From: Prolixibacteraceae bacterium
GTDB taxonomy: Bacteria; Bacteroidota; Bacteroidia; Bacteroidales; Prolixibacteraceae
DNA: 64,000 nucleotides
Direction of reading: 5' to 3'
Assembly (NCBI GenBank): GCA_019459485.1
Contig: JAIBEZ010000085.1
Coordinates: 1 to 64,000, forward strand
Both the position numbers and the translations under genes were made by a program. The first letter of the stretch is position 1. Every line of letters begins with the position of its first letter. Below, in pieces: positions 30,122 through 37,896 of this stretch. The notes under the pieces are model-generated. The model saw nothing but the letters and a program-made list of their open reading frames with translations, had not been told where the DNA came from and made no database searches.

Positions 30122-31630
30122 ATGAATTACAAAAATTTACTTCTAGCATTCTGCATGTTCGCCAGTTCTGCAGTATATGCGCAGCCCATCGCCGACGGAA
30201 ATACGAAATTCCTTGGCAGCGCATATAGTAGTTCACAGTCAACTAATTTCAGAAACTACTGGAACCAAATTACTCCTGAAAATGGTGGAAAATGGGGAAG
30301 CGTGGAAAGAACCAGAGACGTAATGAACTGGGGGGAAATGGAAACGAGCTACAAATTGGCTAAGCAATATGGCATACTTTTTAAAGCGCACACCCTGATT
30401 TGGGGCGCACAACAACCTTCGTGGATCGGTGGATTAGATACAGCTTCCCAGCGTAAAGAAATAGAACAATGGTTTTCGCTGACGGCTGCTAAGTATCCTG
30501 ACATGGAATATATCGACGTGGTAAACGAGCCACTTCACAATGCACCCAATGGAATGCTTCCGTGGGGAGCCACTGTGAAAAATGTTGATTATGCAAAAGC
30601 TCTGGGTGGAGCCGGAAAAACCGGATGGGATTGGGTTGTAACTTCTTTCCGCATGGCCCGCAAATATTTCCCGAAATCGAAATTAATTCTGAATGAATAC
30701 AGTGTGATCAACAGCTCAACAGAAACGGAGAAATATATTAATTTAATTAAAATTCTTCAGGCAGATGGTTTGATTGATGGCATTGGCGAACAGGCACATG
30801 CTTTTACAACAGCCGGTACACCTGCAACGACCTTAAAAACGAACCTCGATGCACTGGGAGCAACCGGAGTACCCATCTATTTAACCGAAATGGATATTGA
30901 CGGAGCGACGGATCTTATACAACTAAAAGAAATGCAGCGCGTTTTCCCAATTTTCTGGGAACACCCTTCCGTTAAGGGAATAACCTTTTGGGGCTTCAGA
31001 ACGGGCCTGTGGCGTAACAACGAGAAAGCATACCTGATCAACTCAAATAACACTGAACGGCCAGCAATGAAGTGGTTGAAAGCTTATGTGAACGATACAC
31101 TTACAATGACCGAATCAATTGCTCTTTCTTTTGACAATGACAGTACCTCAACTATTCTCAAAGGTGCTTCTGTTAATATGATTGCAACTGTACTGCCTTC
31201 AAATACAACCATTCCCAATATTACATGGAGTACGTATCCTACCTATCGGGCTTCAATTGATTCCAACGGAAAACTAACTGCTTTGGGTAACGGAACTGTT
31301 ACAGTTACGGCTACAGCCTGGGACGGTTCGGGAATTAAAGGCACAAAGGTTATTACTATTACAGATCCACCCACAGGTTTATCCGATAAATTAAATGCAG
31401 GTTTTATAAAGGTGTATCCAAATCCTGCGGTGAATGGCAATTTCACAATCGCTGGAATTGAAAGTGTTAAACAAATTGAGTTAATTAATCTGCTTGGAGA
31501 AAAAGTGGTTACTCTCAATAATTTAAACCAATCGTCACTAAATATACAGGTAAATGTTCCTGAAGGAATTTATTTCCTGAAGCTATTCGACGGACATCAG
31601 TCAGTTAGTAAAAAAATTGTAATTAAATAA
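30122..31630 (+). CDS. GH10 endo-beta-1,4-xylanase with Ig-like domain and T9SS tail
   Basis: A signal peptide (about 1-20, ending AVYAQ) precedes a GH10 barrel: FKAHTLIWGAQQPSW, the acid/base in IDVVNEPLHN (about 135), the nucleophile in YLTEMDIDGA (about 255) and ITFWGFRTGLW. A bacterial Ig-like (BIG2) module (about 340-415, GNGTVTVTATAWDGSG) and a T9SS domain (VYPNPAVNGNFTIAG to SVSKKIVIK) end the protein. It should act extracellularly as the main backbone-cutting xylanase. It is the last T9SS-tailed member of the run, followed after 6 nt by the fusion enzyme. Confidence 0.95.
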   Translation: MNYKNLLLAFCMFASSAVYAQPIADGNTKFLGSAYSSSQSTNFRNYWNQITPENGGKWGSVERTRDVMNWGEMETSYKLAKQYGILFKAHTLIWGAQQPSWIGGLDTASQRKEIEQWFSLTAAKYPDMEYIDVVNEPLHNAPNGMLPWGATVKNVDYAKALGGAGKTGWDWVVTSFRMARKYFPKSKLILNEYSVINSSTETEKYINLIKILQADGLIDGIGEQAHAFTTAGTPATTLKTNLDALGATGVPIYLTEMDIDGATDLIQLKEMQRVFPIFWEHPSVKGITFWGFRTGLWRNNEKAYLINSNNTERPAMKWLKAYVNDTLTMTESIALSFDNDSTSTILKGASVNMIATVLPSNTTIPNITWSTYPTYRASIDSNGKLTALGNGTVTVTATAWDGSGIKGTKVITITDPPTGLSDKLNAGFIKVYPNPAVNGNFTIAGIESVKQIELINLLGEKVVTLNNLNQSSLNIQVNVPEGIYFLKLFDGHQSVSKKIVIK

Positions 31631-31636
31631 GCAACC

Positions 31637-33742
31637 ATGTATCAGAATTTTTTAAAACATATCAGGTTGACCGCACTGATAATTGCGATCGGTTTTTCAG
31701 TATTTTCAGCAAACGCACAAAAAGGGCTGAAAGATGTTTTTCAGGGGAAATTCTATCTCGGAACTGCCATGAACAATGGTCAGATTAACGGACGTGACAC
31801 TGCTTCTGTCCGGATCATCAAACAGCATTTCAACTCCATCACTGCTGAAAACATCATGAAAAGCGCACTGATACAGCCAACAGAAGGAAAGTTTAACTTC
31901 GAACTGGCCGACCAGTTTGTTGAATTCGGGTTACAAAATCAAATGTTTATTGTAGGCCATTGTTTGGTGTGGCACTCACAGACACCAAGGTGGTTTTTTG
32001 TTGACAGCGATGGCAAAGATGTTTCGCGCGATGTCCTCATCAGCCGCATGAAAAATCATATTGAAACAGTTGTTGGCCGCTACAAAGGCAAGGTAAAAGG
32101 CTGGGATGTTGTGAACGAAGCAATTGAAGACAACGGTTCCTGGCGCGAGAGCAAATTCTACAAGATTATTGGTCCCGAATTCGTAAAACTGGCTTTTCAA
32201 TTTGCCCGCGAAACCGATCCGGATGCTGAGCTCTACTACAACGATTATTCAATGGCGTTGCCAGGAAGACGAGAAGGCGTGGTTAAAATGGTAAAAGACC
32301 TTCAGAAAGACGGAATCCGCGTGGACGGAATCGGAATGCAGGGCCATTTAAGCATGGACTTTCCTAAAACAGAAGAATTCGAAAAAAGCATCCTGACTTT
32401 TGCCGGTTTGGGAGCACAGGTACACATTACTGAAATGGATATTTCGGCGCTGCCCAGCCCTAAAAACCAGCAGGGAGCCGATGTCGATTCTCGGGTTGAA
32501 TACAAAGCCGAGTTAAATCCTTACACAAATGGATTGACCGAAGAGGCTGAAAAAGCACACGCAAAACGTTATCAGGAAATGTTCGATCTGTTCCTGAAAC
32601 ATCAGGACAAAATTGACCGGGTAACATTGTGGGGTGTTAGCGACCGCCAGTCGTGGAAAAACAATTTCCCGGTTCCGGGACGGACGGATTATCCGCTGCT
32701 TTTCGATCGTAACAATCGGCCCAAAAGTTTTGCAAAAAGCCTGCTCGCCGGAGCGGAAACAAGTATGCTCAAAAGCGGCAGTAACTATCTCATGAAAGAC
32801 CTATACATTGCTGATCCTTCGGCGCACGTTTTCAAGGGCAAAATATACGTTTATCCGTCGCACGACATTGAGACAGGAACTCGGGGTCATGGCGACGGCG
32901 ACCAATTCGATATGCGCGATTACCGAATATTTTCGATGGACAATGTTGAGGGCCCGGTTACTGATCACGGCGTAGCACTCGATTTAAAAGACATTCCCTG
33001 GGCGGGTCGCCAGTTGTGGGCGCCAGATGTGGCTTTCAAAAAAGGGACTTACTACCTTTATTTTCCGGCAAAGGACCAGACCGATATTTTCCGCATGGGT
33101 GTTGCCACCAGCAAAAAACCTGAAGGCCCGTTTAAGGCTGAATCCAACCCGATAAAAGGAAGTTACAGCATCGATCCGGCTGTTTTTCAGGATAAAAACG
33201 GAGCACACTACATGTATTTCGGCGGACTCAGGGGCGGCCAGTTGCAACGTTACCGCAACAACAAAGCCATCGAGTCGGGCATTCATCCAAAAGCTGATGA
33301 ACCTGCCTTGACTGCAAAAATCGCAAAACTGACCGACAATATGCTCGAATTTGCTGAAGAACCAAAGGATGTGGTTGTTCTTGATAAAGCAGGACAGCCC
33401 CTCAAAGAAGGCGACCGCAACCGCCGCTTTTTTGAAGCTGCCTGGGTTCACAACTACAACGGCAAATACTATTTCTCCTACTCAACAGGCGACACGCACA
33501 ATATTTGCTATGCCATTGGCGATAATCCTTACGGGCCATTCACTTATGAAGGTGTAATTCTCACTCCGGTTGTGGGTTGGACCACCCACCATTCCATCGT
33601 TGAATTCAAGGGAAAATGGTACCTGTTTCACCACGACAGCAAACCTTCAGGAGGAAAAACCCACCTGCGCAGTGTGAAAGTAACCGAATTGAAATACAAT
33701 ACCGACGGAACCATCCAAACCATTGACGGTGAAGGGAAATAA
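31637..33742 (+). CDS. Bifunctional GH10-GH43 fusion enzyme
   Basis: A signal peptide covers about residues 1-28 (ending SANAQ). The GH10 domain (about 30-375) shows GHCLVWHSQTPRWFF, the acid/base in WDVVNEAIED (about 158), the nucleophile in ITEMDIS (about 265) and TLWGVSDRQSW. The GH43 domain (about 385-700) has its three carboxylates in YIADPSAHVF, YSIDPAVFQD (about 513) and FFEAAWV (about 598). There is no CBM and no T9SS tail, unlike the previous four enzymes. It is therefore probably periplasmic, turning imported xylo-oligosaccharides into shorter products and then xylose or arabinose. It is last in the operon. Confidence 0.93.
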   Translation: MYQNFLKHIRLTALIIAIGFSVFSANAQKGLKDVFQGKFYLGTAMNNGQINGRDTASVRIIKQHFNSITAENIMKSALIQPTEGKFNFELADQFVEFGLQNQMFIVGHCLVWHSQTPRWFFVDSDGKDVSRDVLISRMKNHIETVVGRYKGKVKGWDVVNEAIEDNGSWRESKFYKIIGPEFVKLAFQFARETDPDAELYYNDYSMALPGRREGVVKMVKDLQKDGIRVDGIGMQGHLSMDFPKTEEFEKSILTFAGLGAQVHITEMDISALPSPKNQQGADVDSRVEYKAELNPYTNGLTEEAEKAHAKRYQEMFDLFLKHQDKIDRVTLWGVSDRQSWKNNFPVPGRTDYPLLFDRNNRPKSFAKSLLAGAETSMLKSGSNYLMKDLYIADPSAHVFKGKIYVYPSHDIETGTRGHGDGDQFDMRDYRIFSMDNVEGPVTDHGVALDLKDIPWAGRQLWAPDVAFKKGTYYLYFPAKDQTDIFRMGVATSKKPEGPFKAESNPIKGSYSIDPAVFQDKNGAHYMYFGGLRGGQLQRYRNNKAIESGIHPKADEPALTAKIAKLTDNMLEFAEEPKDVVVLDKAGQPLKEGDRNRRFFEAAWVHNYNGKYYFSYSTGDTHNICYAIGDNPYGPFTYEGVILTPVVGWTTHHSIVEFKGKWYLFHHDSKPSGGKTHLRSVKVTELKYNTDGTIQTIDGEGK

Positions 33743-33769: not shown

Positions 33770-35173
33770 TTAATTTTGCTCTTTGTTTGAATATTTCCTT
33801 TTCAGCCAAAAATATACCGGAATTCCTGAAAGGATAAGAATCAACCCTAAGGCAGCTTCGCGTGGTCGTGCAATAACCGTATTAAAAATCAGTCCGATAC
33901 AAAAGAGTATAAAAATAGCCGGAACATACGGGTAACCCCACACTTTGTAGGGACGGTGCGCATCGGGCATTTTGCGGCGCAGGATAAATACGCCCAGCGT
34001 GGTAGCGCCGTAAAAGATAAAAACGGCAAAAATCACCATGTCGGTCAACTGATCGAATGTACCCGACAGCACCAGCACCGAAGCCCATACCCCCTGCCAC
34101 AAAAGCGAGTTGGAGGGCACATTAAATTTGTTCAGCTTTTTGATTCCCGAAAAGAAAAGTCCATTGCGGGCCATCGCATAATATGGACGCGAACCCGTAA
34201 GAATACTGGCATTGGTGCACCCCAGTGTGGTCAGCAAAATCAGCAGCGAAATGAACAAAACACCTCCGGTTCCCCAGAAACTTCGTACAGCCTCAACCGC
34301 AGCGATCTGATTGCCCGCTTCGTGAACCTGAACCAATTGAGGGATGGACAAAAGCGAGAGATACGTCACATTCACCAGCAGATAAACGGCGATTACCACA
34401 AAAACGCCTATCACAATTCCTTTCGGAATATTTCGGGTAGCATCTTTGATCTCTCCGCCTATAAATCCAACAGAAACCCATCCCTGATAAGCCCAGAAAG
34501 CTGCAAGCATCGCTGTAAAAAAGGAAGAAAACGTAACTGTTCCGCTGATAAGATCCCGGCGATCCATAAAATTGGCAGGTGTGGCAACCGAGCTGCCAAG
34601 TCCAAAAACAATAATCAAAAGCAGGCCTGCGCATACCATTAAGAGTATGGCTTTGCTCACCCCTGCCCCACTCTTTAATCCTGAAATATTTAGAATTGTT
34701 AATATCAGGATCAGCAGTATGGCAACGAGCTTAACGCCAAAATCCTGAAAAGGGAAGAAAACGCCTCCTATCGATAGATGTTGCAGCGATGAAAAAACTT
34801 CTGGAATGGGAATGATACTGTTCAGCGACTGGGCAAAAACATAAGCCAGAGAGGAAATAGTGGCAGTTTGAATGATCGTAAACAGCGACCAGCCATATAA
34901 AAAAGCAAAAAATCGGTTGTAAATTTTTTTCAGATAAACATATTCGCCTCCTGTATCGGCCAGTAATCCGGCAACTTCGGCATTGCTCAGGGCGCCAAAA
35001 AGTGTGATAATTCCTCCGACAATCCATGCCGCAAGTATCCACGACGAAGACTGAAGTTCAGCAGCCATCGGAGCAATTTTCTTGTACACTCCTGAACCAA
35101 TGATATTTGCGACTACAAATATGATGACATATCCCAACCCGAGCGTCTTTACCAGATTTCGTTGATTACCCAT
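33770..35173 (-). CDS. APC-superfamily amino acid permease
   Basis: About twelve hydrophobic helices are seen, with the APC family start LGYVIIFVVANIIGSGVYKK, the GGEYVYLKKIY loop after helix 2 and FWAYQGWVSVGFIGGEI in the helix 6 region. The 467 aa length is normal for LAT/APC permeases. The family moves amino acids or amines by antiport or symport; the substrate cannot be assigned. It is convergent with the GH10-GH43 gene (27-nt gap) and divergent from the GDPD-GH16 gene. Its protein is related in layout to the second permease at 38.6 kb. Confidence 0.88.
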   Translation of the reverse strand: MGNQRNLVKTLGLGYVIIFVVANIIGSGVYKKIAPMAAELQSSSWILAAWIVGGIITLFGALSNAEVAGLLADTGGEYVYLKKIYNRFFAFLYGWSLFTIIQTATISSLAYVFAQSLNSIIPIPEVFSSLQHLSIGGVFFPFQDFGVKLVAILLILILTILNISGLKSGAGVSKAILLMVCAGLLLIIVFGLGSSVATPANFMDRRDLISGTVTFSSFFTAMLAAFWAYQGWVSVGFIGGEIKDATRNIPKGIVIGVFVVIAVYLLVNVTYLSLLSIPQLVQVHEAGNQIAAVEAVRSFWGTGGVLFISLLILLTTLGCTNASILTGSRPYYAMARNGLFFSGIKKLNKFNVPSNSLLWQGVWASVLVLSGTFDQLTDMVIFAVFIFYGATTLGVFILRRKMPDAHRPYKVWGYPYVPAIFILFCIGLIFNTVIARPREAALGLILILSGIPVYFWLKRKYSNKEQN

Positions 35174-35372
35174 ATAGTTTTGAAAATGAATAAGGATTCG
35201 AAATTAAGAAATTAGTTAGATTCTGGAGGACTATTTACATTGCCGCGAATTTAAAATGTGGGCAGCCATGCGAGTTGGAAATTCCGTAGCTGCTCACATT
35301 TATTTTTTACTAAAACTTTGTGCAACTTTGTGTTTTCAAGCCTTCGGGGCAAAATCTGTAAAATCTAAAAAA

Positions 35373-36917
35373 ATGCAAAAAACAATAATTTTTACTTTCT
35401 CAGTTTTCCTTCTCCTGATTTTCATCCAGCAGTCAACAGCGCAAACCTCCGGTTCAGGAGAACAAAATAATTTCGTGAAAAATGGCGTTGTGGCCCACCG
35501 TGGCGCCTGGAAAAAAGACGGATTACCTCAGAACTCAATCGCTTCGTTAAAAAAGGCTATTAGCCTGGAAGTTGCCGGATCGGAGTTCGACGTGCAACTA
35601 ACCGCCGACGGAGTTTTGGTGCTTAACCACGACCCGGTTTATGAAGGGCTGCACATCGAAAAAACAAAATATTCAGGTCTGAAAAAATATCGGTTAAAAA
35701 ACGGGGAAGTTCTTCCAACCCTCGAGAAGTACCTGAAAATTGGAATGAAACAGCAAACAACCCGCCTGATTCTGGAATTAAAACCATCGCAAGTCAGCAA
35801 GGAACGATCGCTGCTTCTGGCTCAAAAAGCTGTTGCGAAAGTAAATAAAATGCGTGCGCAACCCTGGATAACCTACATCAGTTTCGACTATGATATTCTG
35901 AAAGAAATAGTTCGTTTAGACCCATCGGCAAAGACAATGTACCTCAACGGAAATGTGTCACCAAGTCAGCTAAAAGCGGATGGAATAACTGGTGCGGATT
36001 ATCACTTCAATGTTTTCAAAAAAGACGACAATTGGATGGACGATGCCCGAAAATCCGGAATTGAAACAAATGTTTGGACTGTAAACGATCCTTTGCTGAT
36101 GGATTATTTTCTGGCCCGTGACATCGATTATATTACTACCGACGAACCCGAACTCCTGCTGAAAAAAGTAGCTGAGAAGGAACAAAACCAGGGATGGAAA
36201 CTGGTTTGGGTGGATGAATTTAACACCGCCGGCCTGCCTGATTCGACCAAATGGAACTACGACACCCGCGGAAATACCTACGGTTGGGGAAACAACGAAG
36301 CGCAATGGTACAACGTAGCCAATCTGCAAAATACGCAGCTTAGCGATGGTACCCTAAAAATCGTTGCCCGTCAGGAACCAACTTCAGGCAAGGAATATTC
36401 CTCCGGAAGGATCACCACCAAAAGCAAAGGCGACTGGAAATACGGCAAGATTGAAGTCAGGGCAAAACTGCCTTCAGGAAAAGGTACATGGCCAGCCATC
36501 TGGATGCTGTCGTCGGACAATACTTATGGAGGATGGCCTAAAAGCGGTGAAATAGACATTATGGAACATGTTGGGTACGATCCGGATTCTGTACATTCGA
36601 CGGTTCACACCCAAAAATACAATCATACAAAGGGCACCCAGGTTGGGAAAGCAATAGCTGTGAAAACCGCCACCACCCAATTCCATGTTTATACCACCGA
36701 GTGGGACGAAAATGAAATCAGAAGTTATGTGGATGGTACGCTCTATTTTTCCTTCCGGAAAGAGGACAGCGGAGTCGATGCCTGGCCTTTCGACCAACCA
36801 TTTCATTTAATCCTGAACCTTGCAATTGGCGGCGGTTGGGGCGGAAAGCACGGCATTGATGACAGCAAATTTCCACACACGTTTGAAGTTGATTACGTGC
36901 GGGTATTTAAACGTTAA
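35373..36917 (+). CDS. Secreted GDPD-GH16 fusion (phosphodiesterase plus beta-glucanase)
   Basis: The ORF extends to 35256, but ATG 35373 (MQKTIIFTFSVFLLLIFIQQ) starts a signal peptide and is chosen. Residues about 35-265 form a glycerophosphodiester phosphodiesterase barrel: VAHRGAW (His, about 41), GSEFDVQL (metal Glu and Asp), NHDP (second His) and LILELKP. The usual PENT motif is PQNS here. Residues about 275-514 form a GH16 jelly roll with GEIDIMEHVG (nucleophile and acid/base, about 392), close to bacterial laminarinases/lichenases. Both active sites look complete, so one exported protein may cleave a glycerophosphodiester and a beta-glucan. The combined substrate is unknown. Confidence 0.9.
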   Translation: MQKTIIFTFSVFLLLIFIQQSTAQTSGSGEQNNFVKNGVVAHRGAWKKDGLPQNSIASLKKAISLEVAGSEFDVQLTADGVLVLNHDPVYEGLHIEKTKYSGLKKYRLKNGEVLPTLEKYLKIGMKQQTTRLILELKPSQVSKERSLLLAQKAVAKVNKMRAQPWITYISFDYDILKEIVRLDPSAKTMYLNGNVSPSQLKADGITGADYHFNVFKKDDNWMDDARKSGIETNVWTVNDPLLMDYFLARDIDYITTDEPELLLKKVAEKEQNQGWKLVWVDEFNTAGLPDSTKWNYDTRGNTYGWGNNEAQWYNVANLQNTQLSDGTLKIVARQEPTSGKEYSSGRITTKSKGDWKYGKIEVRAKLPSGKGTWPAIWMLSSDNTYGGWPKSGEIDIMEHVGYDPDSVHSTVHTQKYNHTKGTQVGKAIAVKTATTQFHVYTTEWDENEIRSYVDGTLYFSFRKEDSGVDAWPFDQPFHLILNLAIGGGWGGKHGIDDSKFPHTFEVDYVRVFKR

Positions 36918-36990: not shown

Positions 36991-37896
36991 ATGAACCGAA
37001 ATCATAAGTATCAACTTTGGCCAGCTGTCATCTTTCTTTTTCTGATCGCAAGTCTTCCTTTGGCAGCAATCGCGCAACAAAAACTTCCAACGAAATTAAA
37101 GAACAGCCTGAATGCATACTCTTTCAATGGTCCGCTGATGAAAGGCGAAATGAATCTGGACAATTTATTGGAGTATTGCGCTGCCAATCAGTTCGATGCG
37201 GTCGATATTACCGCCTATTATTTCCCGGGTTATCCTGAAGTTCCTTCGGATGAATATTTGTACCACATCAAACAAAAGGCATTTTTGCTCGGTCTTGAAA
37301 TCAGCGGAACCGGTGTGCGAAATGACTTTACCGATCCTGATCCGGCCAAACGAAAAGCGAGTATTGAGTTGGTTAAAAAATGGATCATCGCTTCCGAAAA
37401 ACTTGGAATTCCGGTCATTCGCGTATTCTCAGGAGTTGCAGACACCAAAGATATTCCGCGTGAAAAGGTTGTAGATTATTTGGTGAAAGACCTGAAAGAA
37501 TGTGCTGAATTTGGCAAAGCGCATGGGGTTATAGTGGGAATACAAAACCACCACGATTTTATCAAAACTGCCGACGAGACGATCGAAATCATCAAACGCG
37601 TCAACTCCGATTGGTTCGGATTAATTCTGGATATTGGCAGCTTTCGCACCGATCCGTACAGGGAAATAGAAAAGACAATTCCATACGCGGTTAGCTGGCA
37701 GTTGAAAGAAAACTTATACGTGGATGGAGTGGAGCAAAAAACTGACCTGAACAAACTGATGAAGATTATTCAGCAATCCGGTTATCGTGGATATATTCCA
37801 TTGGAAACGCTGGGTGCAGGCGACCCAAAAGTGAAAGTTCTAAAGTTTCTGGAAGAGATCAGGGAAGCCATGCAAAAGATTGGCGGATTAAACTAA
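36991..37896 (+). CDS. Exported sugar phosphate isomerase/epimerase-like TIM-barrel protein
   Basis: TTG 36982 is possible; ATG 36991 gives a signal peptide (AVIFLFLIASLPLAAIAQQ). The mature protein is an AP-endonuclease-2/xylose-isomerase-like TIM barrel: FDAVDITAYYFPGYP, GVRNDFTDPDPAKR, IVGIQNHHDFIKTADE, GLILDIGSFRTDP and YIPLETLGAGDPKV. The metal-ligand pattern (Glu/Asp/His/Glu) looks plausible in these stretches. Members isomerise or epimerise sugars or act as 3-keto-sugar enzymes, and export is common in Bacteroidota. It lies 73 nt after the GDPD-GH16 gene and before the interrupted methyltransferase, so the substrate may be a product of the former. Confidence 0.8.
   Translation: MNRNHKYQLWPAVIFLFLIASLPLAAIAQQKLPTKLKNSLNAYSFNGPLMKGEMNLDNLLEYCAANQFDAVDITAYYFPGYPEVPSDEYLYHIKQKAFLLGLEISGTGVRNDFTDPDPAKRKASIELVKKWIIASEKLGIPVIRVFSGVADTKDIPREKVVDYLVKDLKECAEFGKAHGVIVGIQNHHDFIKTADETIEIIKRVNSDWFGLILDIGSFRTDPYREIEKTIPYAVSWQLKENLYVDGVEQKTDLNKLMKIIQQSGYRGYIPLETLGAGDPKVKVLKFLEEIREAMQKIGGLN

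Follow-up and report, generated by a model that had tools for sequence, protein, structure and literature searches.

A gene of a Prolixibacteraceae bacterium encodes a predicted secreted chain in which an N-terminal glycerophosphodiester phosphodiesterase (GDPD) domain precedes a C-terminal GH16 domain. Its sequence and comparative context lead us to propose, with a probability of roughly one half, that the protein is a two-step secreted hydrolase for beta-1,3/1,6-glucan that bears, or is cross-linked by, phosphodiesters. The C-terminal GH16_3 domain would make internal cuts in beta-1,3(4)-glucan, and the N-terminal domain, a metal-dependent phosphodiesterase with a TIM-barrel fold, would cleave a phosphodiester on, or cross-linking, the same beta-1,3/1,6-glucan. 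By taking off a phosphate group that would otherwise block cutting or uptake, the GDPD would make the glucan fragments accessible to SusC/SusD-type uptake. We infer the activity of both domains, the polymer they would share and the nature of the substituent from sequence comparisons.

As a protein it adds one more example to a structurally solved architecture, and the comparative pattern matters more: on one clade of GH16 domains, GDPD is swapped for an unrelated phosphoesterase. This pattern is the new part of the present work, although its novelty is provisional, the literature search having been small.

A predicted secreted chain with two active sites

The window, by which we mean the whole stretch of DNA analysed, spans 64,000 nucleotides (positions 1–64,000 of contig JAIBEZ010000085.1, assembly GCA_019459485.1). 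From sequence alone, an earlier sequence-only reading had proposed a single secreted protein joining GDPD and GH16, and this was borne out by an intact frame of 514 residues with both Pfam domains above cut-off (Table 1; handles such as L001 and G313 are our own). GDPD (PF03009) matches residues 42–260 with E=6.9e-24 and 85.7 bits against a cut-off of 23.6, and GH16 (PF00722) matches residues 317–494 with E=9.7e-27 and 94 bits against a cut-off of 22. An alternative in-frame ATG upstream, at 35256, would extend the protein to 553 aa; the signal peptide begins at 35373. Reading of the sequence found neither a lipobox nor a Por tail in the protein. That the protein is one secreted chain with two complete active sites is, as far as sequence can establish it, confirmed.

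Table 1. Features of the fusion gene and its immediate neighbours in the window.
Feature	Positions	Strand	Basis or remark
GDPD–GH16 coding sequence	35373..36917	+	Open frame, 514 codons plus stop; orthologues intact in L001, L002, G313
Predicted type I signal peptide, residues 1–23, MQKTIIFTFSVFLLLIFIQQSTA followed by Q	35373..35441	+	Sequence reading
GDPD domain, residues 42–260	35496..36152	+	Pfam PF03009; H42, R43, E71, D73, H86, E135, K137
GH16 (GH16_3-type) domain, residues 273–513	36189..36911	+	Alignment extent of PDB GH16 relatives
GH16 catalytic motif E393-I-D395-I-M-E398	36549..36566	+	Unvarying across 62 fusions
Downstream gene, a secreted TIM barrel of the xylose-isomerase type (PF01261)	36991..37896	+	Pfam; adjacent gene, at most a candidate member of the system
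Divergent upstream neighbour, amino-acid permease (PF13520)	33770..35173	-	Pfam; adjacent gene, at most a candidate member of the system

Every motif residue that the sequence-only reading had listed is present. The GDPD motifs are H42-R43-G44, E71-D73 (SEFDV), H86-D87 (NHD) and E135-K137 (LELKP). In the GH16 half, E393-I-D395-I-M-E398 satisfies the EXDXXE motif of GH16 subfamily 3, and the 'WPA...WXX...WPX' pattern that characterizes this subfamily, the laminarinase type (PMC6827312), appears as WPA 373–375, WML 377–379 and WPK 388–390. Judged by its PDB relatives, the GH16 half is probably an endo-beta-1,3(4)-glucanase. Loss of catalytic residues in a careful alignment had been named as a way in which the proposal could fail; across 62 distinct fusion proteins none is lost, and H42, R43, E71, D73, H86, D87, E135 and K137 of the GDPD as well as E393, D395 and E398 of the GH16 show no variation. 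A frameshift or an assembly join between two genes is ruled out by the uninterrupted fusion in independent assemblies (L001, L002, partial L003 and G313) and in dozens of species.

Counts of synonymous and non-synonymous changes give dN/dS values of 0.075 against L001 and 0.129 against L002 for the GDPD half, and of 0.106 and 0.075, respectively, for the GH16 half. Because the ratio is low in each, both halves are under strong purifying selection, with neither drifting. These observations bear on whether the GDPD might lack catalysis and serve the GH16 glucanase as an accessory or binding module, as might be read from the name of the solved homologue, which mentions the glucanase only. With its catalytic and metal residues unvarying throughout the fusions and its dN/dS as low as that of the GH16 half, we consider such a module very improbable, and a dead GDPD is unlikely on the same evidence. 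Structure prediction was confident for the GH16 half; most blocks of the GDPD half, where the alignment held five rows, fell below pLDDT 70.

Spread of the fusion and histories of its halves

The GDPD–GH16 fusion is widespread in Bacteroidia and its architecture is already known, so the novelty once suggested for it does not hold: a full-length homologue is in the PDB (7WW4/7WWC). The copies closest to home share 91% (L001), 87% (L002), 93% (L003, partial) and 91% (same-genus genome G313) identity with the window protein. A count across Bacteroidota, a check that the sequence-only reading had suggested, found the fusion in 8 of 396 phylum-sampled genomes. A genus-level search gave 59 matches among the 121 species of one genus, most of them the fusion. 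By family, the fusion occurs in 18 of 151 genomes of one family, 3 of 60 of the window's own (window included) and 4 of 351, 4 of 200 and 4 of 150 genomes of three further families. Two genomes have copies with one in-frame stop each (TAG, TGA; L079/L148 of G310 and L139/L170 of G565), which are either broken genes or sequence errors. The PQNS variant, suggested as the mark of a distinct GDPD subgroup, does not serve as one, as PQNS, PENS and PKNS are found in fused and stand-alone GDPDs alike.

In the GH16 tree, the window domain falls in a clade of 10 rows (support 100/99) together with same-family and related non-GDPD GH16s, and almost all other fusions lie outside this clade. The AU test rejects a single clade of all fusion GH16s (p=4e-6, or 4e-8 once the long-branched L145 is dropped) and does not reject one when the window row is left out (p=0.2). 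In the GDPD tree, which omits the window genome's own second GDPD (C4) and the metallophosphoesterase–GDPD rows, all on very long branches, the window GDPD is nearest to fusions of a family, f71, that is tentatively Chitinophagaceae-like (62% identity), a grouping that at 76/81 is not firm; a single clade of fused GDPDs is rejected (p=1e-4). Since neither the fused GH16s nor the fused GDPDs form one clade, the pairing seems to have formed more than once. Repeated fusion or domain replacement is a possible route, as is fission for some of the stand-alone GDPDs.

Phosphoesterases fused to and beside the glucanase

Two lines of evidence favour a coupling of phosphodiester cleavage with glucan cutting. 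First, this GH16 is repeatedly joined to one or the other of two unrelated phosphoesterases, at SusCD loci of matching layout. In L005, L006 and L034 (the same proteins recur in L080 and L081), the domain N-terminal to a GH16 of the window's clade is a calcineurin-like metallophosphoesterase, identified by Pfam in L005 (PF16371 and PF16370) and by homology of the region in the others, with a fold unrelated to that of GDPD. The gene maps match, reading FecR-SusC-SusD(c18)-[X-GH16], where X is GDPD in L002 and the metallophosphoesterase in L005, L006 and L034. Lone GH16s of the same clade follow SusC-SusD(c18) in L184 and L007, the latter with a separate GDPD-GH16 two genes beyond, and follow SusD(c18) in L004. 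A search for the metallophosphoesterase family in the window's bacterial family further yielded metallophosphoesterase–GDPD proteins (L217 and L221; PF16371+PF00149+PF16370+PF03009), one of which, in L272, sits behind SusC-SusD(c18)-BACON protein-metallophosphoesterase. With GDPD–GH16, metallophosphoesterase–GH16 and metallophosphoesterase–GDPD all seen, all three pairings exist. The small literature search found no earlier report of metallophosphoesterase–GH16 or metallophosphoesterase–GDPD proteins.

The two MetallophosN-Metallophos-MetallophosC-GDPD proteins are 755 aa (L217/L271:8386-10653) and 743 aa (L221/L272:8320-10551) long. Phosphoesterases are not the sole partners of the window's GH16 clade, as a 702-aa protein (L143/L183, genome G545) joins an agarase-like glycoside hydrolase (PDB 5T3B, E=5e-74) to a GH16 of this clade; the N-terminal half of that protein gave no Pfam match.

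Second, phosphoesterases neighbour the fusions, together with GH30 and GH3 partners in some relatives. Several of these fusions sit in what are, by gene content, clear beta-glucan loci. The fullest, L162, reads SusC-SusD-two small lipoprotein-like genes-GH16-GH2-[GDPD-GH16]-EEP-GH30-GH30-transporter-GH3, where EEP denotes a phosphatase/nuclease (PF03372). Others are SusC-SusD-GH16-[fusion]-GH16-GH30-GH30 (L148), regulator-SusC-SusD-[fusion]-EEP-GH3 (L264) and SusC-SusD-[fusion]-EEP (L263, L163 and L164), and a GH30 lies beside the fusion in L266 and L267. GH30 occurs at the fusion loci of five genomes (4 genera) and is not enriched there (5 of 47 fusion loci versus 5 of 52 control GH16 loci). 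A phosphoesterase (EEP, NAGPA, PLC, metallophosphoesterase or GDPD) lies within 8 kb in 23 of 47 fusion loci versus 1 of 52 control GH16 loci (Fisher p=2e-8), or in 7 of 18 fusion genera versus 1 of 52 control loci (Fisher p=1.8e-4), in a post hoc test whose query proteins were chosen from fusion loci, whose single-sequence searches miss distant relatives and whose control and fusion genomes are unmatched. By genus, these phosphoesterases are EEP in 6 genera and phosphocholine-specific phospholipase C (TIGR03396) or the NAGPA phosphodiester glycosidase (PF09992) in the genus of G079, where the phospholipase adjoins the fusion in 10 loci and NAGPA is near it in 7. Also in that genus, a conserved lipoprotein-like protein of ~320 aa without a Pfam match (c12) is encoded between the GDPD-GH16 and NAGPA genes (L155, L156, L159, L160, L167, L171 and L179).

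The same neighbourhoods are open to a serious rival account, to which we give real weight though less than even odds. It holds that the protein does two separate jobs: the GH16 would open fungal or plant beta-glucan walls, the glucan itself being free of phosphate, while the GDPD would free glycerol 3-phosphate from deacylated phospholipids, such as glycerophosphocholine, of lysed prey or debris, and the fusion would ensure only that the two are secreted together. Scavenging commonly involves GDPDs and phosphoesterases of the calcineurin type. In the genus richest in fusions, the phospholipase C often adjoins them, and scavenging of phospholipid or phosphorus also fits these loci. Stand-alone GDPDs of the same type have either SusCD plus GH3 or GH2, or EEP and NAGPA, in their vicinity and could mark general nutrient loci. 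Against separate jobs, two unrelated phosphoesterases recur with GH16 specifically, at matching SusCD loci, and the phospholipase C lies beside the fusion in one genus only. As a separate observation, one locus of genome G039 (L194:5674-8150) has EEP, stand-alone GDPD and NAGPA genes in a row.

The window's own surroundings count against the coupled hydrolase that we favour: among the neighbouring genes, no SusC/SusD and no phosphoesterase adjoins the fusion gene. It is solitary, with two amino-acid permease genes on one side and the xylose-isomerase-like gene on the other; in the same-genus L147/L001, the latter is also downstream of the fusion, after three additional genes. SusC-SusD lies directly upstream of the fusion in L002. 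In its own genome, the window fusion could, we infer, serve two other loci in trans. One is a separate SusC-SusD-GH3-GH16-GH30 locus (L243), and the other a SusC-SusD-SASA esterase-metallophosphoesterase-GDPD locus (L204, C4) whose GDPD is the sole other PF03009 match in the genome.

Upstream of the window fusion gene is a xylan-type region with GH10 and GH10–GH43 proteins. It includes a GH10 protein bearing a Por sorting tail (window 30122-31630) and, by Pfam, a single secreted protein combining a GH10 xylanase with GH43 (window 31637-33742). In the same-genus L001 (9617-11365) and L147, genes for a 583-aa GH16-CBM-Por-tail protein and for a GH29 fucosidase come after the fusion; the window has neither at that place.

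Which polymer would the coupled hydrolase attack? Plausibly the likeliest are fungal walls, with their mannoprotein–phosphodiester–beta-1,6/1,3-glucan, and the bacterial osmoregulated glucans of group 4, cyclic beta-1,3/1,6-polymers that can carry phosphocholine. The sequence-only reading had put forward beta-glucans with putative phosphoglycerol groups, osmoregulated periplasmic glucans or an envelope polymer among them. Of its proposal, the linking of phosphodiester cleavage to the cutting of beta-glucan is favoured by the phosphoesterase swap, the neighbouring phosphoesterases and the GH30/GH3 partners, whereas osmoregulated glucans as a general class are not supported, since the backbone is beta-1,2 in groups 1–3 and beta-1,3/1,6 and cyclic in group 4 alone (PMC10514313). 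Osmoregulated glucans of the E. coli type fit poorly, their beta-1,2 backbone (PMC10514313) being unlike GH16_3 substrates.

Within the coupled reading, dismantling of fungal walls in particular strikes us as a rather unlikely specialization. The GDPD, a PI-PLC-like barrel, would cut the phosphodiester between GPI-derived mannoproteins and beta-1,6-glucan, and the GH16 would cut the underlying beta-1,3-glucan. Fungal walls do contain a GPI-remnant phosphodiester, and GH30 and GH3 partners suit beta-1,6/beta-1,3-glucan. Further, mannoproteins are attached to beta-1,3-glucan through beta-1,6-glucan (PMC11319602), and yeast walls contain mannan linked by phosphodiesters (PMC5766240). Counting the other way, no alpha-mannosidase or chitinase was found among the annotated neighbours of the fusions, in an annotation that is not exhaustive. 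Nor do we know of any action of EEP or NAGPA enzymes on GPI remnants.

The broadest form of the coupled reading is a dedicated Bacteroidota system for phosphodiester-decorated or phosphodiester-cross-linked beta-1,3/1,6-glucan, in which a GH16 clade was independently joined to GDPD and to a calcineurin-like enzyme in matching SusC/SusD contexts, other members having EEP and NAGPA enzymes as neighbours. We advance it tentatively, at odds short of even. If it is true, an abundant phosphorylated beta-glucan is still to be recognized. If the swap of GDPD and metallophosphoesterase reflects the substrate, there would be a natural phosphate-bearing beta-glucan and an enzyme set for detecting it; the enzymes would offer tools for fungal walls or envelope glucans, and the question of which glucan carries the phosphodiester would become testable.

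Comparison with known systems

The literature search returned no paper describing 7WW4, GDPD–GH16 fusions or GDPD in beta-glucan loci, and for strain NAU1659 only a paper on a beta-1,6-glucanase, without GH16 or GDPD. A 2015 wheat-straw metasecretome report gives four Sphingobacterium GH16 proteins, RWS13-16, whose annotation is glycerophosphodiester or glycerophosphoryl diester phosphodiesterase and which were seen by proteomics only, as proteins secreted in growth on wheat straw (PMC4666044). They very probably share the GDPD–GH16 architecture.

The closest solved structure, the 480-aa 'beta-1,3(4)-glucanase' of PDB 7WW4/7WWC, has the same two domains in the same order as the window protein (residues 33–513, E=2e-175) and the same HRGAW, PQNS, SEFDV, NHDP and EIDIME motifs. 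In the GH16 tree, from which 7WW4 itself is absent, most other fusions belong to a different clade from the window's domain. Each half also has solved relatives that differ in standing alone. The best single-domain match to the GDPD, the glycerophosphodiester phosphodiesterase PDB 3NO3 (E=7.5e-60, residues 38–264), has no GH16, and the GH16_3 laminarinases PDB 3ILN and 6XOF, to which the GH16 half aligns over its full length (E=1e-86 and 2e-75), lack a phosphodiesterase domain. Nearer to the window protein, within the same bacterial family, the proteins of L005, L006 and L034 share its GH16 clade and those of L217 and L221 share its GDPD family, but the fold of the phosphoesterase differs.
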